NCBI GenBank assembly: GCA_012026685.1 | Contig: VEOY01000001.1 | Coordinates: forward strand, 1-38,668 | Length of the DNA: 38,668 nt | Reading direction: 5' to 3' | Source of the DNA: Nitrospirota bacterium | GTDB lineage: Bacteria > Nitrospirota > Thermodesulfovibrionia > Thermodesulfovibrionales > UBA6898 | Shown here: piece after piece, positions 1-21,561 of the stretch | Numbering within the stretch: position 1 is the stretch's first letter | Layout: every line of letters starts with the position of its first letter | Notes under the pieces: generated by a model | Told to the model about the DNA's origin: nothing | Databases searched by the model: none | Seen by the model: only the letters and a program-made list of their open reading frames with translations | Position numbers and translations under genes: made by a program

Positions 1-647
1 GTCTTCCCCGACATTCCCGACTTCAGGCTTACACTCAGGCCTTTTGCTGTTTTTTCAACAGGATGGAAGGATACGTTGGATACGGCAAACTCTTCCATGG
101 TGTTGAGACTGCTGAAGGGTTTATTTACGCTGTCGGCATGACACCGGTAGCAGATCTCGGACTCGTTTTCCGCAACCTCCTTTTTCGAGCCTCTCCGGTC
201 GTATCCAGGAGCGCCCTGAAGAACGTTGTCCTTTCCGACAGCATGCGGCGCATGGCAGTCGAGGCAACTGACATGCCTTGGCTTTGCACCGGTTTCCTCA
301 GGCATTTTTTCGTTGCCCCTGTGATATCTGGCGGTATCGATCACGGGATGTTTGTACCTTTTGAACATGGCAGAATACACTTCTGACGAGGCACGAATAG
401 GCCCGTCCCCCATGGGACTGTGACAGCTGAAACAGAGCTCAGGCACATCCTTCCTCAGCATCGCGCTGCCCGGCCTGCCGTGCCCTTTATGGCAGGCGCC
501 GCATCCGAACTCATTGACGGACAGGTCCAGATGCGTAGGCGTTACTCTCGCTCCGGCAGCAAGCGAGACGAGGCCTGTAAGAACAGACATTATAACGAGC
601 AGTTTTACCGGACTACCACCAATCTTTTTCATAGCAGAGCCTATCAT
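1..647 (-). CDS. Multihaem c-type cytochrome, 3' end cut by window edge
   Basis: This reading frame is open from an ATG at 647 to the left edge, so about 215 residues are visible and the C terminus is missing. GGAGG lies 8 bases before the ATG, which supports this start; an internal ATG at 632 begins MKKIGG and is a possible alternative. A signal peptide (hydrophobic KLLVIMSVLTGLVSLAAG) is followed by four CXXCH haem-binding motifs: CGACH, CFSCH, CLDCH and CYRCH. The spacing and the CLDCHAPHA pattern fit doubled-CXXCH cytochromes. It is the last visible gene of the operon that starts at the outer-membrane barrel, 17 bases after the tetrahaem cytochrome. It is exported to the periplasm or beyond and probably carries electrons. 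The total haem number is unknown because the gene is cut. Confidence 0.88.
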   Translation of the reverse strand, partial: MIGSAMKKIGGSPVKLLVIMSVLTGLVSLAAGARVTPTHLDLSVNEFGCGACHKGHGRPGSAMLRKDVPELCFSCHSPMGDGPIRASSEVYSAMFKRYKHPVIDTARYHRGNEKMPEETGAKPRHVSCLDCHAPHAVGKDNVLQGAPGYDRRGSKKEVAENESEICYRCHADSVNKPFSSLNTMEEFAVSNVSFHPVEKTAKGLSVSLKSGMSGK

Positions 648-664
648 TATTATTGCCTCCCGCA

Positions 665-1507
665 TCAACAGGGCCCGCTATGGCAGGCAGTGCAGAGCGC
701 CGACCAATTCGACCAGTTCGTTGTACCGTGATATTTCGAGGGAGGCCCTGTTCCAATACCCGGGATCACGAGAAAATCCGTATTATTATTGTGAGGGTCA
801 TGGCAGGATGCGCACTGCACGCCCTCAAAGTAATTCACACCGGCAGGCGTTGTCTTCAGGAACCCGTTGGAACCGTCATTATACGTATTGTTCGTGGGCT
901 TGAGCTTGACCCTCGGGTCAGAAGGCGGATATACGATCGAATACTTTCCGCTGCCCGGAGTGCATGCGGTATTTTTCGCTGTTATGAGAGTGTTGTTCAC
1001 CGGCACTGAGATCGGATGCGTGCCCGACAGGTTTATCCCTATATATCCGTAGGCAGTTGGGGGCATTGCTCCCGATCCGCTGACCCCGACCATGAATACG
1101 GATCCCGTACTGCCCGGCCCGGGAAGATTCGCGAGGGACCCGATAGCCACTGTCCCATCATGACAGCTGAGGCAGAGTTTCGAACCAAGGTCAGGCTGCT
1201 TGACCGTCGTGATCAGATTGGGCCAGGTTGCTCCTGTCGGAAGACTATAGACCTGCGTGCTCAGGGTATGGTTCCACAATGGCGTCTTGTTCGACCCGTC
1301 CTTCAGCGCGCTGTGCGGCGTGTGACAGAACACGCAGATCTCATCGACGTTGGTGGAATAAATGTTCCTTGTTATCGGCGCGGTAGGAGCCGTCGAGGAA
1401 AGGTTGTGCCTTGTATCACGAATACCCGCAGTCCAGGCTGTCCCGGCAATAGCCACAAACGAAACAATGATCAGCACCAGTATGCCGCATCGGAACAAAC
1501 TTCTCAT
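665..1507 (-). CDS. Secreted tetrahaem c-type cytochrome
   Basis: This 280-residue protein has an N-terminal signal peptide (hydrophobic residues about 8-24, ending near TAWTAG) and four CXXCH motifs at about residues 58 (CVFCH), 112 (CLSCH), 232 (CASCH) and 272 (CTACH). It is a small periplasmic or outer-surface electron carrier. The N-terminal pattern EICVFCHTPH followed by PLWN is shared with the cytochrome at 5807-6499, so the two are paralogues. The long middle section (about residues 120-230) carries no haem and is rich in Gly, Pro, Asn and Thr. The start overlaps the stop of the upstream NHL gene by 4 bases (ATGA) and has GGAG upstream, which indicates translational coupling. A haem partner inside a porin or a soluble shuttle are both possible; the sequence does not decide. 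Confidence 0.9.
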   Translation of the reverse strand: MRSLFRCGILVLIIVSFVAIAGTAWTAGIRDTRHNLSSTAPTAPITRNIYSTNVDEICVFCHTPHSALKDGSNKTPLWNHTLSTQVYSLPTGATWPNLITTVKQPDLGSKLCLSCHDGTVAIGSLANLPGPGSTGSVFMVGVSGSGAMPPTAYGYIGINLSGTHPISVPVNNTLITAKNTACTPGSGKYSIVYPPSDPRVKLKPTNNTYNDGSNGFLKTTPAGVNYFEGVQCASCHDPHNNNTDFLVIPGIGTGPPSKYHGTTNWSNWSALCTACHSGPC

Positions 1508-2592
1508 CGCACCTTCTCCTCGATCAGCTTGAAAGCCTGAATCTTGTGATTATACGTATCTGCCACATAAATCGTATTACGCTCATCTATGCTTATTCCG
1601 GTGGGCATGGAGAATGTCCCCGGAGCCACGCCCTGCCCGCCGAAGAACAACAGCAGGTCTCCCCTGTCATCGAATATTTTTATCATGTCCTGCATGGTGT
1701 CCACCAGGTAGATATGCCCGAACGTATCCACCGCAATGCCTTTGGGCTTGTCGATCTCATCATAGGCATCGCCCTGTTTACCAAAGGTGGATATAAAATT
1801 CCCGTCCTTGTCAAATATCTGTATCCTGAAGTTCATCGCGTCACTGATATAGATCCTGCCGTTTGTGCCGGCTGCAATGTGCGTGGGATAGTTGAATTCA
1901 CCGTTGCCGCTGCCTCGTTGCCCGAAACCGGATCGGTATGCGCCTGATGCATCAAATACCTGGACCCTATGCTCCGTCGAATCAAGTACATAGACCCTTT
2001 GCGTTGCCTGCTCGATGACAATCCCCGTCGGTCTCTTGAAAAATCCTTTTTCCCCGAGATAGCCGGAAAACGTTCCTGACGGCTCGTAGATATTCACCGT
2101 AGCAGCTTCTGAATCTGTCACGAACATTCTGCCCCTGTTGTCCACAGCAATCGCTATCGGCATCCGCAGCTGTCCGATACCCTCGAACCCAAAGTGCAGA
2201 AGCTCCTGCGTTTTCAGGTCGATGACCGATACCCGGGGGATACCCTGATCGACAATGTAGAGTTTGTTGTTCATCGCATGGATGCCATAGGGCTTCAGCA
2301 TATACGGCAGGTCGGCAAAGGCCTCGGTACTGCCCTCATGCTCAATATATTCCGCGATGTTCTCACCCTGCGGCGCAAAGGAATACAGGGACCAGAGATA
2401 TGTTATCCTCGGCTTCTCCGGCGGAGGCGGCCAGACGAATTCCCCGGCATAACGGGTGTCCAGGTTCGCCCTGAACGCGGGCGCGCAGCCCATCGTCCCG
2501 GACAGCGCGGCCATCATGATGACAGCGATCGGCGCATAGGAGCTTATCCCTGACTGTTTATATCTCTCTGCCATGTTCTTCATGATCTTCAT
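1504..2592 (-). CDS. NHL-repeat beta-propeller lipoprotein
   Basis: This 362-residue exported protein has a signal sequence whose hydrophobic core ends in SGTMGC, an imperfect lipobox, so lipid anchoring is likely but not certain. The mature N terminus contains VWPPPPEKPRITYL, a proline-rich motif also found in the two NHL proteins at 6738 and 7820. Six NHL-type blades follow, each with the pattern P-x-GI-x-V-D then (I/V)-Y-V-x-D, for example KPKGIAVDTFGHIYLVDT. Such six-bladed propellers usually bind proteins or ligands, and some are enzymes. No catalytic residue set is evident here. It lies 11 bases after the PpiC gene and overlaps the tetrahaem cytochrome gene by 4 bases, so it belongs to the barrel/cytochrome operon. 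A scaffold or assembly role in an electron conduit is inference. Confidence 0.88.
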   Translation of the reverse strand: MKIMKNMAERYKQSGISSYAPIAVIMMAALSGTMGCAPAFRANLDTRYAGEFVWPPPPEKPRITYLWSLYSFAPQGENIAEYIEHEGSTEAFADLPYMLKPYGIHAMNNKLYIVDQGIPRVSVIDLKTQELLHFGFEGIGQLRMPIAIAVDNRGRMFVTDSEAATVNIYEPSGTFSGYLGEKGFFKRPTGIVIEQATQRVYVLDSTEHRVQVFDASGAYRSGFGQRGSGNGEFNYPTHIAAGTNGRIYISDAMNFRIQIFDKDGNFISTFGKQGDAYDEIDKPKGIAVDTFGHIYLVDTMQDMIKIFDDRGDLLLFFGGQGVAPGTFSMPTGISIDERNTIYVADTYNHKIQAFKLIEEKVR

Positions 2593-2603
2593 TGATATGA
2601 ACT

Positions 2604-3545
2604 TCAGGGGACCGATATCCTGGCCCCGGACCTGAGATCTTCAAGCAGTCTGCTCTTCAATTCCTTCTCTCTCTTTTGCTGAATTTCCTTTTTCAGCTTT
2701 TCCCTGACCTCTTCAAAGGCGAGCTGCCGCGTCGGCAATTTAGTTTCAAGATAAAAGATGTAATACCCGTAGATCGTCTCGATGACGCCGGTCATTTCGC
2801 CGGGGTCGACATTGACCAAGGCCTTCTCTATCTCGGGCAGGAGCATATCCCTGTGCAGATAGCCGACATCCCCGCTCTTGTACTTATAATCGTCCTCGGA
2901 AAACTCCCATGCCAGCAGTCCGAAGTCTTCTCCCTTTTTTGCCCGTGCAAGCACTTCCTCCGCCTTTTCCTTCTTCTTGGCCCTCTCCTCTTTCGTCGCA
3001 TCCGCCGGGACCTTGAAGAACATCTCCCTCAGCTTCCACCGTTCCGGGGCAAGGTACTTTTCCCTGTTCGCTTCATAATAGGCCGCAAGGTCAGCGTCGC
3101 TGATCGCCGCCTTCTTTACGACCTCGGCATCAAGGAACTGCTGCACGATATTATCGCGGGAAAGCTGCTGCTTTATGCCCTGCTCTGTCAGTCCTGCCTT
3201 CGCAAGTGCTTCATGAAATTCCTTGTCTGACTTGAACTGCGCCCTCATTCCGGCAAGCTTATGCTCCACTGTTCCTTCATCCGGCTTGATGCCCTTTTTT
3301 TCCGCAGCCTGATATTGCAGTTCCTTGTCTATGAGCTCCTGAAGGGCTTCTTCCCGCAATGCCTTCATCTTTTCCTCGGACACGGTCTTATGAAACGCTA
3401 TATACGGTATTTTTTCCGCCATATATTTCTGCAGATCAGCATTGCGGATCTGCGCTCCGTTCACCGTCGCGACCACCGCATCGTCCGCAAGCGCCGCAAC
3501 AGCAAAACCCAGAAGCAAAAGAAAACCGATAACAGCCTTTTTCAT
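2604..3545 (-). CDS. Periplasmic PpiC/SurA-type peptidyl-prolyl isomerase
   Basis: This is a 313-residue exported parvulin-family chaperone. The signal peptide is MKKAVIGFLLLLGFAVAALA. An N-terminal SurA_N-like helical region contains VNGAQIRNADLQ and is followed by a charged, possibly coiled-coil stretch. The parvulin domain spans about residues 165-275, with the typical FGLLAWEFSED, GDVGYL and YGYYIFYLE segments. Its likely job is folding outer-membrane or periplasmic proteins, and the barrel gene directly upstream is the obvious client. The start at 3545 is preceded by AAGGG at 6 bases. The frame extends to an ATG at 3572 that overlaps the barrel stop (TGATG), but no ribosome site precedes that codon and the extension would spoil the signal peptide. 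PpiC-type genes beside NHL and cytochrome genes also occur in Desulfuromonadales. Confidence 0.9.
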   Translation of the reverse strand: MKKAVIGFLLLLGFAVAALADDAVVATVNGAQIRNADLQKYMAEKIPYIAFHKTVSEEKMKALREEALQELIDKELQYQAAEKKGIKPDEGTVEHKLAGMRAQFKSDKEFHEALAKAGLTEQGIKQQLSRDNIVQQFLDAEVVKKAAISDADLAAYYEANREKYLAPERWKLREMFFKVPADATKEERAKKKEKAEEVLARAKKGEDFGLLAWEFSEDDYKYKSGDVGYLHRDMLLPEIEKALVNVDPGEMTGVIETIYGYYIFYLETKLPTRQLAFEEVREKLKKEIQQKREKELKSRLLEDLRSGARISVP

Positions 3546-3571
3546 GATCATCCCTTCGTGCGCGTCAGTCA

Positions 3572-5389
3572 TCAGAACAGGAACGGTCTTGTCAGCCGCA
3601 TGGTGAGCCTGTGCTGCCGCTCTTCCACATTGTTCTCCCTCTCGTCAACCTTGTACTCATATTCAGCCGTAAAATAGAGCTTCCTCAGATTCCAGCTGAA
3701 GGACGGGCGTATGCCATAGCTCGTCAATTTCTCCCCGTTCGTCGTCCTGCTGTATCCCGACTCCAGCCTCAGCAGTGTCCGCCTCCAGGGCGACATCGCT
3801 ATGGTGTTGCTCAGCAACAGCCTGGTAGTTTTATCCGTGTTCGATACAGACCCTGCACCTACCGCATGGTCCATCCCGCTCCCCCGCGCAAGGGAAGCGG
3901 ACAGGGAGAACTGGACCTTGTTGAAGAACACGGTGGTCACCGTATTGTCCCATGTCGCGTAATCAAAGGTGTCGCTGTTCGTGCTCCTGGTATATTCCAG
4001 TCTCGAGGTGAACACGGTATTGCGTACACTCCCCTGCAGACCGATCGTGGCAGTATGCTGTGTCGTGCCGACGGTATTGCTCGCAGAGAAGTATCTGCTG
4101 TCATAAAATTGTTTGCCGTCATCCTCGAAACCGGATACTTTGTGGAAATCGTACCGGGCGAAGAACTGCAGGTTGGGCGAATAGATGTAGCGGGACTCGG
4201 CGCCGAGATTATACGCGCTGTAACTGTTGAAGAAGACGTCACCAAACACGTTCAGCGATATCCTGTCCGTGAGCATGGTCGAGGCAGAGCCGGTACCCCG
4301 CAATGCATAATCATAGGTGCTGGTCCTGTCATTGTAACGCGTTACGGCGCCCACGGAATAGGTGGTCCTGATCTTGCCGAAATCGCTCGTAGACCCGATC
4401 CTCGCCGATCCGTGATAGACCTTATAACCGAAACTGTTGTCCACGTTCGTATACAGAGCGGTCACCTGATAGTTCCAGAGCTTGTTCTTCAGGGTCAGAT
4501 ATCCATAGTAGTTCAGGTCCATGTTCAGTCTTTTCTGGTTCAGAAAATCCTCACGCTGGCGGTCCTCGTAGTCGACCAAAAAATGGAACGTGTCGGTCTT
4601 GCCCACATTCGTATTCACCTGAAACATGCCGGTGTATTTCGTCTCGTTGTCCTTTTCAAAGGCCTGGCCAGAATTATCGTACTTCATGTACTCCAGTTCA
4701 ATGAAATAATTGCTCCGTGTAGACTTCGTATCAAAATTGCCGTTCATTCTCACGGCGGCAAGATAGGATGTGAGCGTATTGTCTTCATCGTTAAAGCGGT
4801 AGGAATACCGTTCGCCCTCGAACTGATAGACCATCGGCAGGATCCGGTCGAGAAAATTTCCCTTTATCTGGGAGGTAAGACCTTTGAGCCCGACGTTGTT
4901 GGCATTTTTATCCGCGTCATCGTCACTGTTGTTATTGTTGTTGTTATTGTTGTTATTGTTGTTGTTGTTATTGTTGTTGCCGTTCTTGTTCGCCCTGACC
5001 ATGGAATTATAGACCGTCCAATCCCTCATGTTCGTAATGGTGGGTACGTTCCTCTTCCGCTGATAGGTCAGTATGACACTCTCGTGATCACCCTGGTAAT
5101 TGTCGTAGTCATAATACTCTGCCCGCAGGATCACGTTCAACGGCTTCCTCTTGAAAAAATCGAGATTGAGAGAATATCTCTTTTCGTCAGGCGCGGCTGC
5201 GGAACCGCTGCTCGTATACCAGTAGAACCCGAGATCGTAGGTAAGGAAGTTAGGCCTTACGAAATAACTTTTGACATTGAGGTCATAGATCTGGCCGAAT
5301 ACGCTCGTTCTTTCCGAGTAATCAGCGCCATCGCCCCTTCTTTCGAACTTCCGGGTCTCGTAGTTGAACTCGATGGAACCGTAGATCAC
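3572..5389 (-). CDS. Large outer-membrane beta-barrel protein (porin-like), 5' end disrupted
   Basis: The frame encodes about 605 residues of alternating hydrophobic and polar strands rich in Tyr, Phe, Thr, Asn and Arg, and ends in TRPFLF, the C-terminal phenylalanine recognised by the BAM machinery. Many strand pairs with Asp/Asn-rich loops are visible, so a barrel of 20 or more strands is plausible. That size matches porins of porin-cytochrome conduits. One loop contains 17 consecutive Asn residues (4928-4978) followed by SDDDADKN. The only in-frame conventional start is a GTG at 5389 with no signal peptide and no ribosome site. Reading upstream in frame gives a plausible mature N terminus (SSSGTAEALILDPLER) and then an amber codon at 5477-5479, so the annotated start is doubtful. 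The gene is first in an operon with PpiC, NHL and cytochrome genes. Confidence 0.8.
   Translation of the reverse strand: MIYGSIEFNYETRKFERRGDGADYSERTSVFGQIYDLNVKSYFVRPNFLTYDLGFYWYTSSGSAAAPDEKRYSLNLDFFKRKPLNVILRAEYYDYDNYQGDHESVILTYQRKRNVPTITNMRDWTVYNSMVRANKNGNNNNNNNNNNNNNNNNNSDDDADKNANNVGLKGLTSQIKGNFLDRILPMVYQFEGERYSYRFNDEDNTLTSYLAAVRMNGNFDTKSTRSNYFIELEYMKYDNSGQAFEKDNETKYTGMFQVNTNVGKTDTFHFLVDYEDRQREDFLNQKRLNMDLNYYGYLTLKNKLWNYQVTALYTNVDNSFGYKVYHGSARIGSTSDFGKIRTTYSVGAVTRYNDRTSTYDYALRGTGSASTMLTDRISLNVFGDVFFNSYSAYNLGAESRYIYSPNLQFFARYDFHKVSGFEDDGKQFYDSRYFSASNTVGTTQHTATIGLQGSVRNTVFTSRLEYTRSTNSDTFDYATWDNTVTTVFFNKVQFSLSASLARGSGMDHAVGAGSVSNTDKTTRLLLSNTIAMSPWRRTLLRLESGYSRTTNGEKLTSYGIRPSFSWNLRKLYFTAEYEYKVDERENNVEERQHRLTMRLTRPFLF
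4928..4978. repeat. Trinucleotide (AAY) repeat encoding 17 asparagines in the barrel gene
   Basis: Seventeen consecutive AAC or AAT codons lie on the minus strand and encode a polyasparagine tract in a probable surface loop of the outer-membrane barrel. Because the unit is three bases, slippage would change loop length without shifting frame. Confidence 0.9.
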
Positions 5390-5476
5390 ATAGCGTTTGT
5401 AATAGAGCGCCCTCTCAAGCGGGTCGAGGATCAGCGCCTCGGCAGTGCCGGAAGAAGACAGCGCACCGGAACACGG

Positions 5477-5569
5477 CTAAAAAGAGAACAGGTCTCCCAT
5501 CCATGACATGGGCGCGCAAAGAAATATGCATGCCCAGACCGAGAAGAAAAGGACCTTCAGCTTTTTCAT
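5477..5569 (-). other. Signal-peptide-like 30-codon leader ending in an in-frame TAG ahead of the barrel gene
   Basis: An ATG at 5569 opens a reading frame whose N terminus (MKKLKVLFFSVWACIFLCA) looks like a Sec signal peptide. It runs to a TAG at 5477-5479. The same frame then continues without a stop into the barrel at 5389. No good ribosome site precedes the ATG. In another frame, an ATG GAT GGG start also gives a signal-like stretch (RPVLFLAVFRCAVFF) that would join the barrel after a single-base shift. Either way the barrel currently lacks an intact export signal. The cause could be a nonsense mutation, a small indel, a sequencing or assembly error, or readthrough. Bases 5570-5709 between this and the sigma-54-like site are AT-rich and show no other gene. 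Confidence 0.6.
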
Positions 5570-5753: not shown

Positions 5754-5786
5754 AAAAAAAAAGGCAGACCCTTTCGGATCTGCCTT
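5754..5786 (-). terminator. Rho-independent terminator after the tetrahaem cytochrome
   Basis: On the minus strand an 11-bp stem (AAGGCAGATCC pairing with GGGTCTGCCTT, including one G-T wobble) closes a GAAA loop and is followed by a run of nine T. It begins 21 bases after the stop of the cytochrome at 5807-6499, so it ends that transcript before the sigma-54-like promoter of the next operon. Confidence 0.9.
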
Positions 5787-5806: not shown

Positions 5807-6499
5807 TTAGCCTTTGGTCACATGGCATGCAATACACATTGCGGAACCGGCAGTTGCCTGCCTCAGGAAGTTCACTTCGTTCGCACCAGCTGCATAAGCC
5901 TGGTTGTGCACGTCATGGCATGTTGCGCACTCGATCTTGCCTGCGAACGTCGGCATCGCGGTGCCAGTGATGTTGTTGTTACCAGCATCAATAGCAGGAA
6001 AGCCGTTGTTCTGAAGGTCGGTACCCGGGACATACGTGAAGCCTACCGGATGATCGTTCGTCAGGGCATTGTTGTTGTCGAGAGCACCCCAACCGATGTT
6101 GGAGAACGAATTCGCTCCGATCGTGTTGGTAGCCGAAGCTCCCAGAGCATACGGAGCTACGTTCCCAACACCTGAGCCAGGACCATTGACAATGGACGAA
6201 GCAACACCATTGTGGCAGGTCATGCAAGCCAGAGACTGGGCGCCGAGAGCCAGAGCCGGACTGTCCATCTCGAACGTTGCGTTAGAATAATAACGATACG
6301 TCGGAGATGTCTGTGTCCTGTTCCAGAGCGGACCGCTCGTTGAAGCAACAGCCGCGTGCGGCGTGTGGCATGCGACGCAGATCTCTCCGGTTCCACCTGA
6401 AAGGTCATGCTGTGTACCGGTAAGGCCGGCACCAGCAGCGAAGGATACCGCGGCAAAAGCGAGCACTAAACAAAAACTCAAGCCAAGGATTCTTTTCAT
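5807..6499 (-). CDS. Secreted tetrahaem c-type cytochrome (paralogue of the one at 665-1507)
   Basis: This 230-residue exported cytochrome has a clear signal peptide (MKRILGLSFCLVLAFAAVSF) and haem motifs at residues 41 (CVACH), 92 (CMTCH), 191 (CATCH) and 222 (CIACH). The mature start HDLSGGTGEICVACHTPH and the PLWN motif are shared with the product of 665-1507. The haem-free middle (about 100-185) is rich in Gly, Ala and Asn. The ATG at 6499 has AAGGGGGTG about 7 bases upstream, a strong ribosome site; an in-frame ATG at 6535 is less likely because the signal peptide would be internal. It appears to be a single-gene transcript, with a sigma-54-like promoter upstream and the terminator at 5754-5786 downstream. 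Its role is probably periplasmic or extracellular electron transfer. High expression is suggested by the strong ribosome site and terminator. Confidence 0.92.
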   Translation of the reverse strand: MKRILGLSFCLVLAFAAVSFAAGAGLTGTQHDLSGGTGEICVACHTPHAAVASTSGPLWNRTQTSPTYRYYSNATFEMDSPALALGAQSLACMTCHNGVASSIVNGPGSGVGNVAPYALGASATNTIGANSFSNIGWGALDNNNALTNDHPVGFTYVPGTDLQNNGFPAIDAGNNNITGTAMPTFAGKIECATCHDVHNQAYAAGANEVNFLRQATAGSAMCIACHVTKG

Positions 6500-6565
6500 A
6501 ATTTTCACCCCCTTCCCATAGTAAAATGGACTCACAATAAAATATGAGTTTCAGTTAAGAATTAT

Positions 6566-6737: not shown

Positions 6738-7799
6738 TTACTGTCCCTTCTTCGCACCTCCAAGGTATTGGAAGACCTGTATCCTCTTGTTGAACGTGTC
6801 GGTCACATATATCCTGTCCTTCTCGTCAATGAAGATCGTGGTCGGAAGCAGCAGGTTGCCGAGCTGCCGACCTGATGTAGCGGCAAACGTGAGGAGCTGG
6901 TTCGTTGCTTCGTCGAACACCTGAAAATTGCCGAAATCAATATCAAGGCCATACAGATGACCCTCTGAGTCTAGCGCCACTCCGATGATCTTCGAAAAGT
7001 TGCCGAAGCCCGACCCCACGCCCTGGCCGATCTTCTTCAGGAACTTCCCCTCAGGCGAGAAGACCTTTATGTAGCGGCCGAACATGTCGGACACATACAG
7101 CTTCCCGTCCTTTCCCACAGCAACCGACGAGGGGACATTGAAGCCGTCGTCCTCATCGGAACGGTCTCCCTTTCCGATGGTGAAGAGCAGTTTGCCGGAA
7201 TAGTCGAAGGCCTTGACCGAATGCAGTTTTGTGTCGCAGACATAGACCGTCTGGGTCCGTGTGTTGAGAGCAAGGGCAACAGGCCGCAGGAACGTGCCGG
7301 GGTTCTGCCCGATCCCGAACTTCAGGCTACCGTTTTCGACGTCATAGACAAGTACGCTCTTGCTGCCGAGGTCTGCGACGAAAAGATATCCCCGGTCATT
7401 GTCAATGGCAAGTCCCATGGGAATGGTCGCCCGCTTGACCGCGGTCTCTCCTATGGTCGTGAACTTCTTGTGCTCAAAGTCGAGCTTGAAGACCTTCAGC
7501 AATTGCGTGTCGGAGACAAAGATATTGCCCTTCCTGTCAGCAACGATGCCGTGCGGCCTCTGCAGGAAGGTCGGCCCCTCTTCCCCGATGACGCGGAGGA
7601 GGGTGTTTTCCTCTTCTACATCCTTGCTGCCCCAGTAGACGGCGACGAACTTTATCCTCGGCTCGTCAGGAGGGGCCGGCCAGACAAGCTTGTCGAGCTC
7701 TTCCTGCGCGGGCTTAAAAGGCTGAGGCGCAGTCGCGCAGCCTGCTACAAGGACCATAAAAAACATGAACACTATGGCGAAGGAAAAATATTTTCTCAC
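6738..7799 (-). CDS. NHL-repeat beta-propeller lipoprotein
   Basis: This 353-residue lipoprotein has the signal sequence VRKYFSFAIVFMFFMVLVAGC, whose lipobox LVAGC is canonical. The mature N terminus carries VWPAPPDEPRIKFV, the proline-rich motif common to all three NHL proteins here. Blades follow, with patterns such as RPHGIVADRKGNIFVSDT, VPSSVAVGKDGKLYVSDM and LPTTIFIDEKDRIYVTDT, six in total. A GTG at 7799 with GGAGGT 9 bases upstream gives the neat signal peptide and is preferred. An ATG at 7823 overlaps the stop of the upstream NHL gene (ATGA) and would add eight residues. It is the last gene of the 11-haem cytochrome/NHL/NHL unit. Membrane-anchored scaffolding or redox-partner binding is inferred; no enzyme motif is visible. 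Confidence 0.88.
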   Translation of the reverse strand: MRKYFSFAIVFMFFMVLVAGCATAPQPFKPAQEELDKLVWPAPPDEPRIKFVAVYWGSKDVEEENTLLRVIGEEGPTFLQRPHGIVADRKGNIFVSDTQLLKVFKLDFEHKKFTTIGETAVKRATIPMGLAIDNDRGYLFVADLGSKSVLVYDVENGSLKFGIGQNPGTFLRPVALALNTRTQTVYVCDTKLHSVKAFDYSGKLLFTIGKGDRSDEDDGFNVPSSVAVGKDGKLYVSDMFGRYIKVFSPEGKFLKKIGQGVGSGFGNFSKIIGVALDSEGHLYGLDIDFGNFQVFDEATNQLLTFAATSGRQLGNLLLPTTIFIDEKDRIYVTDTFNKRIQVFQYLGGAKKGQ

Positions 7800-7819
7800 G
7801 ATCGTCCAACCTCCGTAAT

Positions 7820-8872
7820 TCATTTCAGAATTTCAAAAACCTGCACTCTCCGGTTCAACTGATCAGCAACATAGATGCGACTGAACTGCCTGTCTATGCA
7901 GATCCCTGCAGGGAGAGAGAATTCTCCGGGTCCGGTCGTGCCGGACGCACCGATAAAGAGCAGCAGCCTTCCCATGGGATCGAATATCTGAAAATTGTTG
8001 AACGCAGCATCAGTGACATACACATTGCCCATGAAGTCCGTCGCGACGCCCTTGGGCCGGGAGAAGGTCCCGGGCTCTGCCCCGAGCCTGCCGAATTCCC
8101 TGATGAATACCCCTTCGCCGTTGAACACCTGCACCCGGAAGTTGGCGCTGTCCACAACGTAAAGGTTTCCCATGTTGTCCATGGCAATGCCCATGGGATA
8201 GTTGAACATGCCGGGCCCCGGACCTCTGCCGCCGAAACCAAAGAGGTGCTTGCCGGAGAGGGAAAAGACTTCCACCCGGTGGGTCCTGCTCGAGACAACA
8301 TATATGCGGCCCTTCGCATCGTCAATGACCATGCCCGAGGGGTTGTCCAGGACCTCCTTGCCGAACGACGTGATCAGCCTGTCGGTACTGCTAAAGACCA
8401 GGACAGCATCATGCCCGGTATCCGCGACATAGATGTTCTGCATGGCGTCAACCGCAACGCTCGAAGGCACACGAAGGGCCTGTTCCTTCTTCCCGATCAC
8501 GGTCACCTGCTTGAGAGCTTCATCAAAGATAAAGACCGCATGCTTCAGCGTGTCCGCCACATACACCCTGCCGGACCTGTCAGTTGCGACACCATACGGT
8601 TTCAGAAGGTCGTCGGACGGCCTGTCCCCCGCTATGATATCAAGAGAACCGGTCTTCCAGTAATCAGCCTCCCCGAAAAGACTTTTCACGTACCTGATGC
8701 GGGGCTGTTCAGGGGGCAGAGGCCAGACATAGCTTCCGACATCAGGCCTGGTCTCCTGCTCAGGAGCACACGCGAACAGCATTGGCAGGGCAACGGCTAA
8801 AAAAAAGATGCGCCCGAGCAGAGACGCGGGGAGGCGCGCCATGTTGCGGCTGCCTTTGCTCACAGCTCTCAT
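7820..8872 (-). CDS. NHL-repeat beta-propeller lipoprotein
   Basis: This 350-residue exported protein has a hydrophobic segment ending in LPMLFAC, a usable lipobox, followed by VWPLPPEQPRIRYVKSLFGE. This N-terminal motif is shared with the NHL proteins at 1504 and 6738. Six NHL blades are visible, for example KPYGVATDRSGRVYVADT, YPMGIAMDNMGNLYVVDS and LPAGICIDRQFSRIYVADQ. The ATG at 8872 lies 2 bases after the stop of the 11-haem cytochrome and is preferred; an upstream ATG inside that gene and an ATG at 8842 are alternatives. The pairing of a multihaem cytochrome with two lipid-anchored propellers suggests they form or assemble one complex at a membrane surface, but that is inference. Confidence 0.87.
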   Translation of the reverse strand: MRAVSKGSRNMARLPASLLGRIFFLAVALPMLFACAPEQETRPDVGSYVWPLPPEQPRIRYVKSLFGEADYWKTGSLDIIAGDRPSDDLLKPYGVATDRSGRVYVADTLKHAVFIFDEALKQVTVIGKKEQALRVPSSVAVDAMQNIYVADTGHDAVLVFSSTDRLITSFGKEVLDNPSGMVIDDAKGRIYVVSSRTHRVEVFSLSGKHLFGFGGRGPGPGMFNYPMGIAMDNMGNLYVVDSANFRVQVFNGEGVFIREFGRLGAEPGTFSRPKGVATDFMGNVYVTDAAFNNFQIFDPMGRLLLFIGASGTTGPGEFSLPAGICIDRQFSRIYVADQLNRRVQVFEILK

Positions 8873-8874
8873 GA

Positions 8875-9798
8875 TCAATATTTGTGGCAATATTGACACA
8901 AGCCCATGGTAGAAGCTGCCTTGTATCTGAAGAGCTTTCCCCAATCAGAGCTGTGGGGTTCATGACAACTGCCGCAGTAGAACTCACTGTCCTTTCGCAC
9001 CGGGTCCTTGACGACCTTTTTGCCCTTTTTGACCGACCCGAGATAATGCCCTCCGCGTGCAGAGAATCCGGTCACGGCATGCGGCGTTTTCATAACTTCA
9101 GCATGACATTCGAGGCAGACGCTGATCGGTCTTTTCAGAAGAAGTTTCTGCTCTTCCGAAGCATGGGGAGAATGACAGCCGGCGCACATGCCCCCCGCGA
9201 CCGGCGCATGGACGGTTTTTCTGGTGAACGGCCCCTTATCGTGACAGGTAAAACAAAGGTCAGGCATGGAGGCTTTCAGTAATTTTTCCTGCGCGGACGC
9301 ATGGGGGTCATGGCATGAAGTACACAGACCGATGCTGACAGGGGAATGGACGACGGCCCCGGAAAACTTAGCTTTATCATGACAGGTGAAACACAGGTCC
9401 GGCATCGGAGTGATCAGGAGCTTTTCATTGTCCGATGCATGGGGATTGTGACAGGAAAGACATCCCATCTGAAGCGCTGGATGAACGGTCTTTTTGCTGA
9501 AGACACCCTTGTCATGACACCCGTAGCATAACGCCGGCGGTTCCGAAGCAAGGCCTTTGGCAACCTTGTTCGTTTTCTTGTGGGGAATGTCCGCTGCATC
9601 TATCCCGGAATGACATGACGGGCATCCCATCTGTACGGCCGCATGACGGTTCTTTTTTGCTGACAGGTCGCTGTGGCAGGTATCGCAGTTCACCTGCTCA
9701 GCCCGGCACTCAACAGTATTTGAGGCGATAAACCAGGCAGGCATGACAAGAAGAACGAAGATCCAACTGTTCTGTAGGGCATGATATGAATGCTTCAT
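8875..9798 (-). CDS. 11-haem doubled-CXXCH cytochrome
   Basis: This 307-residue secreted cytochrome contains eleven CXXCH motifs: CDTCH, CPSCH, CYGCH, CLSCH, CFTCH, CTSCH, CFTCH, CAGCH, CLECH, CGSCH and CQYCH. The core is a tandem repeat of about 40 residues with the pattern LCFTCHDK, a His-containing VHxPV, then CxxCHxPHAS and KLL, typical of the Paired_CXXCH family. The signal segment is SWIFVLLVMPAWFIAS. The C-terminal part (SCHEPHSSDWGKLFRY) is clearly related to the end of the 15-haem protein at 20270. The ATG at 9798 is chosen because a consensus promoter at 9806-9835 places the transcript start at or next to this codon; ATGs at 9807 and 9822 lie within the promoter. It heads a three-gene unit with two NHL lipoproteins. 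Its role is long-range periplasmic or surface electron transfer. Confidence 0.92.
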   Translation of the reverse strand: MKHSYHALQNSWIFVLLVMPAWFIASNTVECRAEQVNCDTCHSDLSAKKNRHAAVQMGCPSCHSGIDAADIPHKKTNKVAKGLASEPPALCYGCHDKGVFSKKTVHPALQMGCLSCHNPHASDNEKLLITPMPDLCFTCHDKAKFSGAVVHSPVSIGLCTSCHDPHASAQEKLLKASMPDLCFTCHDKGPFTRKTVHAPVAGGMCAGCHSPHASEEQKLLLKRPISVCLECHAEVMKTPHAVTGFSARGGHYLGSVKKGKKVVKDPVRKDSEFYCGSCHEPHSSDWGKLFRYKAASTMGLCQYCHKY

Positions 9799-9805
9799 GC
9801 CTTGC

Positions 9806-9835
9806 ATTATAAAGAGTATCATTTTTTGATGTCAA
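9806..9835 (-). promoter_or_regulatory. Consensus sigma-70 promoter placed on the start codon of the 11-haem cytochrome
   Basis: On the minus strand TTGACA (9830-9835) and TATAAT (9806-9811) are separated by 18 bases. Both hexamers match the sigma-70 consensus exactly. The expected start of transcription, about 7 bases after the -10 box, falls at 9798-9800, which is the A of the ATG or just before it. The mRNA would be leaderless or nearly so. Confidence 0.75.
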
Positions 9836-20269: not shown

Positions 20270-21457
20270 TTATACTTTCTTGTGGCAGAAGGAACAGAGT
20301 TGCATAGGCGTATCCGCAGGATATCTGAACAGCCTTCCGGTCGCGGAACTGTGCGGGTTATGGCAGGACACGCAGGACAGCTGGATCTTCTTATCCTCAA
20401 GCATCACTTTTTTCTTGGTCCTGAGAGGGTGGCCCTTGTGCGCGATAGCGTTGATAATGTGGGGTTCCGTCCTGACTTGCGGATGGCAGGTGTAACACAA
20501 ACTGTTGATCTTCTTGATGAGAAGCGCTTTCCTTTTTGCGGCATGAGGCAAGTGGCAGGAAAAGCACATGCCGCCTGCTACCGGCGGATGAACGTTCTTA
20601 TTCTCGAAAGCGGCCTTGTCGTGGCAATTAAAGCACATCTCAGGCACTGCGGCAAGAAGGAGCTTCTCCTGCTCAGATTGGTGCGGCTGGTGGCAGTTGG
20701 TGCACATACCGGCGGATACGGGAGCATGAACGATCTTCCCCGCAAAACCCTTTGGGTCATGGCAGCTGAAGCACAGGTCAGGCATAGGTTGAAGAAGCAG
20801 TTTTTGCTGGGCCGCCGCATGCGGCGCGTGGCATGATGTACACATGCCTCCCATTACCGGCGGGTGAACGTTCTTCTTGCCCGAGGTTATGGCCTTGTCA
20901 TGGCATTGGTAACAGAGGTCCGGAGGTGCAGCGACAAGAAGCTTCGCGTTCTTGCTGCTGTGCGGATCATGACAGGAAAAACACATTCCACCCGCGACGG
21001 GCGGGTGGACATCCTTGTTTTCGAACTTTGTCTTGTCGTGACAATTAAAGCAGAGGGCCGGAGCAGCAGCAATAAGCAGTTTCGGATTATCCGACAGATG
21101 CGGATCATGGCATGCAGTGCAATCTCCGGACGCAACCGGGGGATGCTGCACTTCCCGGCTGAACCGTTCCTTGCCATGACACGAAAAACACAGGTCTGCA
21201 CCGGTTGCGAAAAGGAACCTGCTGGACTTTGCAGCCTTTTCGTGAGGCTGCGTATGACAGGCAACACATCCCCCGGTCTTGATTATGGGATGCACCACCT
21301 TGCCTGCAAACTTTATCTTATGGCACTTTGAACAATCAGGATACTCTTTGGCGGAAAGAGGCCGGGGCACAAAGAGGCAAGCAAAAAGAAAAAATACCGC
21401 GGACAGGATTATGACAACAGAGCGAAGGTCTTTCCGTGTTTTTTGGCCTCTATGCAT
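20270..21457 (-). CDS. 15-haem doubled-CXXCH cytochrome
   Basis: This 395-residue exported cytochrome has fifteen CXXCH motifs, from CSKCH near residue 42 to CSFCH at the C terminus, arranged in a repeat of about 37-40 residues: LCFNCHDK, F-x-N-K-x-VHPPVAGGMCFSCH, PH, KLL. Each repeat supplies extra histidines suitable as axial ligands. The N terminus MHRGQKTRKDLRSVVIIL starts a signal segment ending near RPLSA. The ATG at 21457 is preferred over one at 21505 because a promoter-like pair (TTGACT, TAGTGT) lies between them. The C-terminal pattern CHNPHSSATGRLFRY matches the 11-haem protein at 8875, so they are paralogues. It is probably a periplasmic or surface electron wire. It is flanked by sugar and membrane genes rather than by other cytochromes. 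Confidence 0.93.
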   Translation of the reverse strand: MHRGQKTRKDLRSVVIILSAVFFLFACLFVPRPLSAKEYPDCSKCHKIKFAGKVVHPIIKTGGCVACHTQPHEKAAKSSRFLFATGADLCFSCHGKERFSREVQHPPVASGDCTACHDPHLSDNPKLLIAAAPALCFNCHDKTKFENKDVHPPVAGGMCFSCHDPHSSKNAKLLVAAPPDLCYQCHDKAITSGKKNVHPPVMGGMCTSCHAPHAAAQQKLLLQPMPDLCFSCHDPKGFAGKIVHAPVSAGMCTNCHQPHQSEQEKLLLAAVPEMCFNCHDKAAFENKNVHPPVAGGMCFSCHLPHAAKRKALLIKKINSLCYTCHPQVRTEPHIINAIAHKGHPLRTKKKVMLEDKKIQLSCVSCHNPHSSATGRLFRYPADTPMQLCSFCHKKV

Positions 21458-21467
21458 AAACAGCTTT

Positions 21468-21496
21468 ACACTACCAAATCCGGAATTCCAAGTCAA
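21468..21496 (-). promoter_or_regulatory. Sigma-70-like promoter of the 15-haem cytochrome
   Basis: On the minus strand TTGACT (21491-21496) is followed after 17 bases by TAGTGT (21468-21473). The -35 box is one base from consensus and the -10 box is poor (three of six). The predicted start of transcription is only 2-4 bases before the ATG at 21457, an arrangement like that of the 11-haem paralogue. Confidence 0.4.
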
Positions 21497-21561
21497 TGCC
21501 GGCACATTGGTTCCCTGATCCAGAAATATACGTGCCGGTCCCTTGAGGACTTTCGTAACGC

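Follow-up and report, generated by a model that had tools for sequence, protein, structure and literature searches.

The closest described systems are the Uet (undecahaem electron transfer) clusters of Tenderiales and Gallionella, in which a tetrahaem cytochrome, a prolyl isomerase, a beta-barrel, NHL proteins and an undecahaem cytochrome are encoded together, and which as described do not contain an MtrA-like part (PMC10734462). The means by which cytochrome nanowires are held at the outer membrane and electrically connected with it have been named as an open question (PMC12307469).

The window, i.e. the whole analysed stretch of 38,668 nucleotides of contig VEOY01000001.1 of a Nitrospirota bacterium, carries the following features in its first 10 kb:

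3-668, minus strand: heptahaem cytochrome H7, cut by the contig end, four CXXCH motifs visible
665-1507, minus strand: OmcE-like tetrahaem cytochrome J4 (OmcE 7tfs, E 3.6e-16)
1504-2592, minus strand: NHL six-bladed propeller, probable lipoprotein (Cys 36; PF01436, E 2.8e-29)
2604-3572, minus strand: PpiC/SurA-type periplasmic prolyl isomerase with signal peptide (PF13145, E 2.2e-19; PF13624, E 4.4e-14)
3572-5569, minus strand: large outer-membrane beta-barrel in UetC-like position, MtrB-like fold in the AlphaFold2 model
5477-5479, minus strand: in-frame TAG, codon 31 of the barrel frame
5761-5786, minus strand: intrinsic-terminator-like site, an 11-pair stem followed by a T-run
5807-6535, minus strand: stand-alone OmcE-like tetrahaem cytochrome A4, UetA-like (9yuq_N, E 4e-20; 7tfs, E 8e-18)
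6738-7823, minus strand: NHL lipoprotein with lipobox VAGC (PF01436, E 1.5e-23)
7820-8944, minus strand: NHL propeller protein, probable lipoprotein (PF01436, E 3.3e-35)
8875-9822, minus strand: MtrA-like 11-haem cytochrome (11 CXXCH; 6r2q_A, E 1.9e-14)

The genes for the barrel, PpiC, the NHL lipoprotein, J4 and H7 lie head to tail with intergenic gaps of -1, 11, -4 and -4 bases, and therefore look like one coupled operon; position 1 is the end of the contig and not of a gene. This co-directional operon had been described in an earlier note on positions 1-5569, and all of its genes could be recovered. That description stopped short of the second OmcE-like gene with its terminator and of the MtrA-like protein; the cluster extends upstream of the barrel, with A4, two NHL proteins and the 11-haem cytochrome, up to position 9822. 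The terminator-like site is located directly 3' of A4 and splits it from the barrel operon, the A4 gene having a leader and a terminator of its own.

The AlphaFold2 model of the barrel, with about 26-28 predicted strands, is of medium confidence (pLDDT 71.5). Its top match among solved structures was MtrB (6r2q_B; Z 19.2, rmsd 4.4 Å over 332 residues), a likeness of size and shape rather than of function, because the model is of medium confidence and ordinary porins come close (Z 18.9 and below). Lower-ranked matches mostly had an rmsd of 6.5-12 Å. No Pfam family was found for the barrel at E-values up to 0.01 and hence no MtrB_PioB domain (PF11854), by which a canonical MtrAB system at the locus is ruled out. 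The missing Pfam family and the co-occurrence with cytochromes also argue against a substrate porin or TonB receptor, yet the porin Z of 18.9 is near the 19.2 of MtrB. A profile was required to follow the family: a single-sequence search reached only 6 of the 176 genomes of the order, the profile search 64. At one further Nitrospirota locus (L082) an HMM run on the locus itself matched the barrel at 4e-27, though the genome-wide profile search had given none there, presumably owing to that search's initial filter or to masked bases. Compared with Rhodocyclales and Gallionella barrels adjoining PpiC, the profile gave a probability of 94.9 and an E-value of 4.4e-8, covering the C-terminal 280 columns only, at 9% identity.

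Both tetrahaem proteins are homologous to the nanowire cytochrome OmcE, with eight of its eight haem-ligand histidines kept; the earlier note had recognised multihaem cytochromes here but missed this homology. In a phylogenetic tree J4 and the N-terminal domains of the fused 11-haem proteins came together in one group (SH-aLRT 91) that was separate from A4 and Geobacter OmcE; A4, which has four CXXCH motifs, fell on the side of Geobacter OmcE. A4 is a candidate filament subunit and possibly polymerises. OmcE-like proteins were present in 69 of the 176 genomes.

Four haems had been counted earlier for each visible partner, and four CXXCH are indeed seen in each, but the complete relatives of the cut H7 gene have seven. 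To one of these (L039:13649-14638) H7 is 44% identical; the missing end of the gene was found on no other contig of the genome. The counterparts of J4 and H7 are fused as one chain at L055, L074, L083 and other loci. At the level of sequence, the four haems of J4 and the seven of H7 correspond to one 11-haem protein elsewhere, matching UetJ, so that J4 would be the N-terminal and H7 the C-terminal part of a split UetJ-like undecahaem protein. The low haem numbers, which together with a central propeller had suggested a different type of conduit, result from this split and from the contig end, and the set of genes corresponds to the published Uet set (PMC10734462), so that a different type is not supported. 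A gene encoding 21 haems is located on contig C29, where it is cut by the end of that contig.

The gene order was found to be conserved. NHL, J4 and H7, or the fused form, directly follow barrel and PpiC in 19 of the 20 loci read in other genomes of the order, with the NHL gene directly 5' of J4; in 15 of 19 relatives PpiC is the barrel's neighbour on one side or the other. Barrel and OmcE-like genes lie within 10 kb of each other in 60 of the 64 barrel genomes, and the two proteins occur together in 62 genomes versus 25 expected (p = 8e-37; 176 genomes). The same set, tetrahaem-PpiC-barrel-NHL-J4-H7, is present at L082, and PpiC-NHL-J4-H7 at L107 and L108. Part of the order was also seen in other phyla: an acidobacteriotal locus (L074) encodes a tetrahaem protein, a large haem-free protein, an NHL protein and an 11-haem protein. 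The Geobacter OmcE loci have NHL and MtrA-like neighbours, and over a range of about 10 kb they lack PpiC, H7 and a barrel of this kind. Neither of the outcomes named beforehand as speaking against a conduit was obtained: the barrel was not placed in a substrate-porin or transporter family, and the gene order proposed for comparison recurs in other genomes.

Taken together, the homologies, the conserved order, the co-occurrence and the correspondence of four plus seven to eleven haems indicate, with a probability of roughly two in three, that the locus encodes a Uet-like porin-cytochrome conduit. A porin-cytochrome conduit, as first proposed, is the best reading of the MtrB-like fold, of a barrel that travels with multihaem cytochromes and of the conserved order. 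It is assigned as Uet-like rather than as an unknown type because 4 + 7 matches UetJ and because tetrahaem cytochrome, prolyl isomerase, barrel and NHL proteins are all included; it would be a variant in which the undecahaem protein is split and an MtrA-like 11-haem protein is encoded alongside. In such a conduit the large barrel would open the outer membrane and H7 would most likely run through or into it, a placement that is a guess, as the heptahaem model is of low confidence (pLDDT 46). J4, which in many relatives forms a single 11-haem chain together with H7, would face outward, and the separately transcribed A4 could act as an outer cytochrome that may polymerise. The MtrA-like protein would carry electrons on the periplasmic side, PpiC could help to fold the barrel or the cytochromes, and the NHL lipoproteins may brace the complex at the membrane.

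A rather improbable alternative is that the barrel is occupied by the MtrA-like protein (8875-9822) instead of H7, in the way that MtrB holds MtrA, leaving J4 and H7 outside as MtrC-like terminal cytochromes. It would agree with the match of this protein to the MtrA chain of the solved Mtr complex (6r2q_A), with the MtrB-like fold of the barrel and with the many-haem relative found upstream in most related loci; against the DmsE/MtrA family TIGR03508 the protein scored E 2.7e-35 and 122 bits, under the curated cut-off of 192. However, MtrA-like proteins accompany Geobacter OmcE with no such barrel nearby, while H7/J4 stays beside the barrel. On contig C165 of the same genome, a true MtrB_PioB gene is accompanied by an MtrA-like gene of its own, and the described Uet clusters lack an MtrA-like part (PMC10734462).

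The barrel frame, starting at ATG 5569, is interrupted just past the signal peptide by the TAG at 5479-5477 and is open from 5476 onward; the next in-frame start (GTG 5389) is situated within the mature protein. An alternative genetic code was rejected, since several other genes of the window end in TAG, which is therefore an ordinary stop here. It seems unlikely that this nonsense codon, present in none of the family's other barrels, has inactivated the operon wholly or in part in this strain, because the 634 remaining barrel codons are intact and so is every downstream frame. This would fit a recent change, a strain mixture or a metagenome consensus error, and the codon has no bearing on the function of the family. 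More doubtful still is a barrel that exports and assembles OmcE-type filament subunits with PpiC and NHL as assembly factors and no electrons crossing. In its favour, helpers of assembly are typically of the PpiC or propeller kind, ushers turn up in the structural comparison of the barrel, and the secretion route of cytochrome filaments is open (PMC12307469). But the ushers match no better than the other barrels do, it is the heptahaem protein that is tightly conserved as a partner, and OmcE-type proteins can evidently be exported without barrel or PpiC, as the Geobacter loci have neither.

Within the Uet-like reading, it can tentatively be proposed that J4/H7 and the fused UetJ form the base plate of a nanowire, with H7 crossing the barrel and J4 being the first subunit of an A4 filament. 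If true, conduit and wire would be joined by the same haem-stacking interface in every Uet system. The module is widespread and links an OmcE-like domain, either by fusion or through an adjacent gene, to a heptahaem protein associated with the barrel; it offers a concrete, testable candidate for the nanowire anchor. On these counts roughly one in three of the sampled genomes of the order would hold a Uet-like conduit, and split and fused undecahaem forms are available for comparison.

The locus shares with the Uet clusters a tetrahaem cytochrome, a prolyl isomerase, NHL proteins and a total of eleven haems, and it has a beta-barrel in a UetC-like position; the gene order is near-identical at L082. 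PpiC (2604-3572) stands beside the barrel like UetB, the NHL protein (1504-2592) directly before J4 like UetHI, and A4 is likened to UetA by position, not by comparison with a named UetA sequence. The single undecahaem polypeptide UetJ is represented here by two genes, the barrel is only distantly similar, and an MtrA-like 11-haem protein is found instead of the trihaem cytochromes UetDEG, none of which is encoded by an ORF in the first 12 kb of this contig, which ends at position 1. The Geobacter OmcE filament (7tfs) shares four haems and eight ligand histidines with J4 and A4, and differs in the surroundings of its genes. MtrCAB, MtoAB and PioAB are alike in having a barrel of MtrB size and similar fold with an MtrA-like cytochrome nearby, but the barrel here is without PF11854, the real MtrAB-like pair being the one on C165. 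In the SEEP-SRB1 core operon and the Oet/Ext conduits, PpiC and a six-bladed propeller are likewise combined with multihaem cytochromes, those of the SEEP-SRB1 operon having 16 and 26 haems versus 4, 7 and 11 here (PMC5539420, PMC10553843).

The window is one complete contig (G000:C40) of an assembly of 3.04 Mb in 213 contigs. The cytochrome cluster is listed below in transcription order.

9822-8875, minus strand: MtrA-like 11-haem cytochrome, first in transcription order
8944-7820, minus strand: NHL propeller protein
7823-6738, minus strand: NHL propeller protein
6535-5807, minus strand: OmcE-like tetrahaem cytochrome (A4)
5569-3572, minus strand: large barrel
3572-2604, minus strand: PpiC
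2592-1504, minus strand: third NHL protein
1507-665, minus strand: second OmcE-like tetrahaem cytochrome (J4)
668-3, minus strand: multihaem cytochrome truncated by the contig end (H7)

The genes from the barrel to H7 overlap or almost touch. The A4 gene is set apart by a leader of 202 bases and a strong terminator-like site, and such a separate unit would fit a subunit produced in greater quantity. A formylglycine-generating-enzyme-like gene (PF03781; 9848-10951, minus) lies immediately upstream of the MtrA-like gene, and a relative is also found within the cluster at loci L050, L051, L052, L053 and L056 of other genomes. Elsewhere in the window, a 15-haem paired-CXXCH cytochrome (20270-21505, minus) is encoded amid sugar-nucleotide and glycosyltransferase genes.

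OmcE-like proteins were found in 69 of the 176 genomes of the order, and a barrel profile built from 16 relatives matched in 64. Both occurred together in 62 of the 176 genomes, against 25 expected (p = 8e-37), with the two genes at most 10 kb apart in 60 of 64. Twenty loci, picked by tetrahaem match, were fully read. The gene order, from which the earlier note had proposed a porin-cytochrome conduit, is kept in other genomes: the barrel was present at 19 of the 20 loci and flanked on either side by PpiC in 15 of these 19 (two of the four without PpiC end at contig ends), while barrel and PpiC are followed by NHL, tetrahaem and heptahaem genes or a fused form. The whole set, i.e. tetrahaem, PpiC, barrel, NHL, tetrahaem and heptahaem, occurs in Nitrospirae GWC2_42_7 (L082), and PpiC, NHL, tetrahaem and heptahaem genes are found outside the phylum (L107, L108). 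Behind the heptahaem gene of L039, L043 and L056, as often in relatives, comes a second cluster: another OmcE-like gene, an NHL protein of 900 residues and a many-haem (up to 23) cytochrome. At some loci of Gammaproteobacteria and Acidobacteriota (L091, L092, L099, L103, L104) an OmcE-like match lies within an 18-24-haem protein adjoining a pentahaem OmcE-like gene and NHL, mostly with an 11-haem fusion as well.

The earlier note had also counted four haems for the cut gene. Four are indeed visible before the contig end, but its complete relative in L039 (44% identity across the shared part) has seven, as do further complete relatives. The tetrahaem and heptahaem parts form one chain with 11 CXXCH motifs in L055, Acidobacteriota (L074), Desulfobulbaceae (L080) and many Proteobacteria. 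Judged by open-frame lengths, split and fused forms are both found across the phylum, and as two loci within one genome in G004, G166, G378 and G429. In a quick tree of 119 OmcE-type domains, with weak support on deeper branches, heptahaem-preceding tetrahaem genes and the N-domains of fused proteins formed one group (SH-aLRT 91) that includes J4, while A4 fell outside it, on the Geobacter OmcE side.

Both tetrahaem proteins match Geobacter OmcE (7tfs; E 3.6e-16 for J4, 8e-18 for A4) and 9yuq, another tetrahaem cytochrome in the PDB. In OmcE, one haem-ligand histidine is common to neighbouring subunits (PMC9473688). The four CXXCH histidines and four more (34, 65, 164 and 239 of J4) are invariant in an alignment of 27 relatives; every haem could therefore bear two histidine ligands, the OmcE inter-subunit one among them, as predicted from sequence.

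The barrel matched no Pfam or NCBIfam family. Its AlphaFold2 model has about 26-28 strands (mean pLDDT 71.5), and MtrB (6r2q_B) was the top match by Z (19.2), by far the top by rmsd (4.4 Å over 332 residues) and, by Foldseek TM-score (0.45), the highest among the matches listed. Since ordinary porins follow closely in Z, the modelled likeness to MtrB would back barrel size and shape only. PpiC-adjoining barrels of Rhodocyclales/Gallionella matched the C-terminal half by profile (probability 94.9). The frame contains a TAG at codon 31 (5479-5477, minus), between signal peptide and mature protein, which is absent from all barrel relatives compared; TAG serves as a normal stop in the window. Possible causes of this one are a consensus error, a difference between strains or a recent loss. 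In the loop that joins predicted strands 6 and 7, an Asn run (18 Asn among 20 residues) is encoded by an (AAC/AAT) repeat at about 4915-4990 (minus); most relatives have an Asn-rich loop there, often with Asn at alternate positions (NGNGNG, NANANA, SNSNSN).

Most likely, electrons cross the outer membrane via the barrel, between the periplasmic MtrA-like protein and the exterior, carried by H7 and its partner J4; A4 would be located outside the cell, perhaps as a filament. The flow could go to minerals or come from donors. Going by gene linkage, H7 would be the protein that fills the barrel; alternatively, the MtrA-like protein may sit there. This protein (8875-9822) matches the DmsE/MtrA family with a score under the cut-off, and also MtrA of the solved Mtr complex (E 1.9e-14), a chain listed under a wrong molecule name in its PDB entry. 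As another alternative, the barrel may serve as export channel for filament subunits. The need for cytochrome filaments in electron transfer is disputed for OmcS (PMC11077965).

The same genome encodes a canonical pair on another contig (L151, G000:C165, 2207-5187), in which an MtrA-like gene with nine haems comes first and an MtrB_PioB barrel (PF11854, E 1e-84) second. A further contig (L150, G000:C29, 9723-13502) carries a cytochrome of at least 21 haems extending past the contig end; in L045, L046 and L049 a relative of this cytochrome lies behind the conduit operon.

Geobacter OmcE loci contain MtrA-like and NHL proteins, with no such barrel or PpiC. The central propeller had been taken as a possible sign of a different conduit type. 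Neither it nor the prolyl isomerase marks a new type, because clusters with such parts are already described: prolyl isomerase and propeller with multihaem cytochromes are the core of a cluster in ANME-partner bacteria (PMC5539420), NHL proteins adjoin an OmcE homologue in Geoalkalibacter (PMC12016550), and the undecahaem conduit Uet comprises tetrahaem UetA, prolyl isomerase UetB, barrel UetC, trihaem UetDEG, NHL UetHI and undecahaem UetJ (PMC10734462). Tetrahaem, prolyl isomerase and NHL proteins are common to Uet and the window, and the barrel is a candidate counterpart of UetC; however, UetJ is a single chain whose counterpart here is split in two, and the trihaem UetDEG are absent from the open reading frames of the window's first 12 kb. 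Because of these two differences from strict Uet membership, we call the cluster a Uet-like variant rather than Uet.
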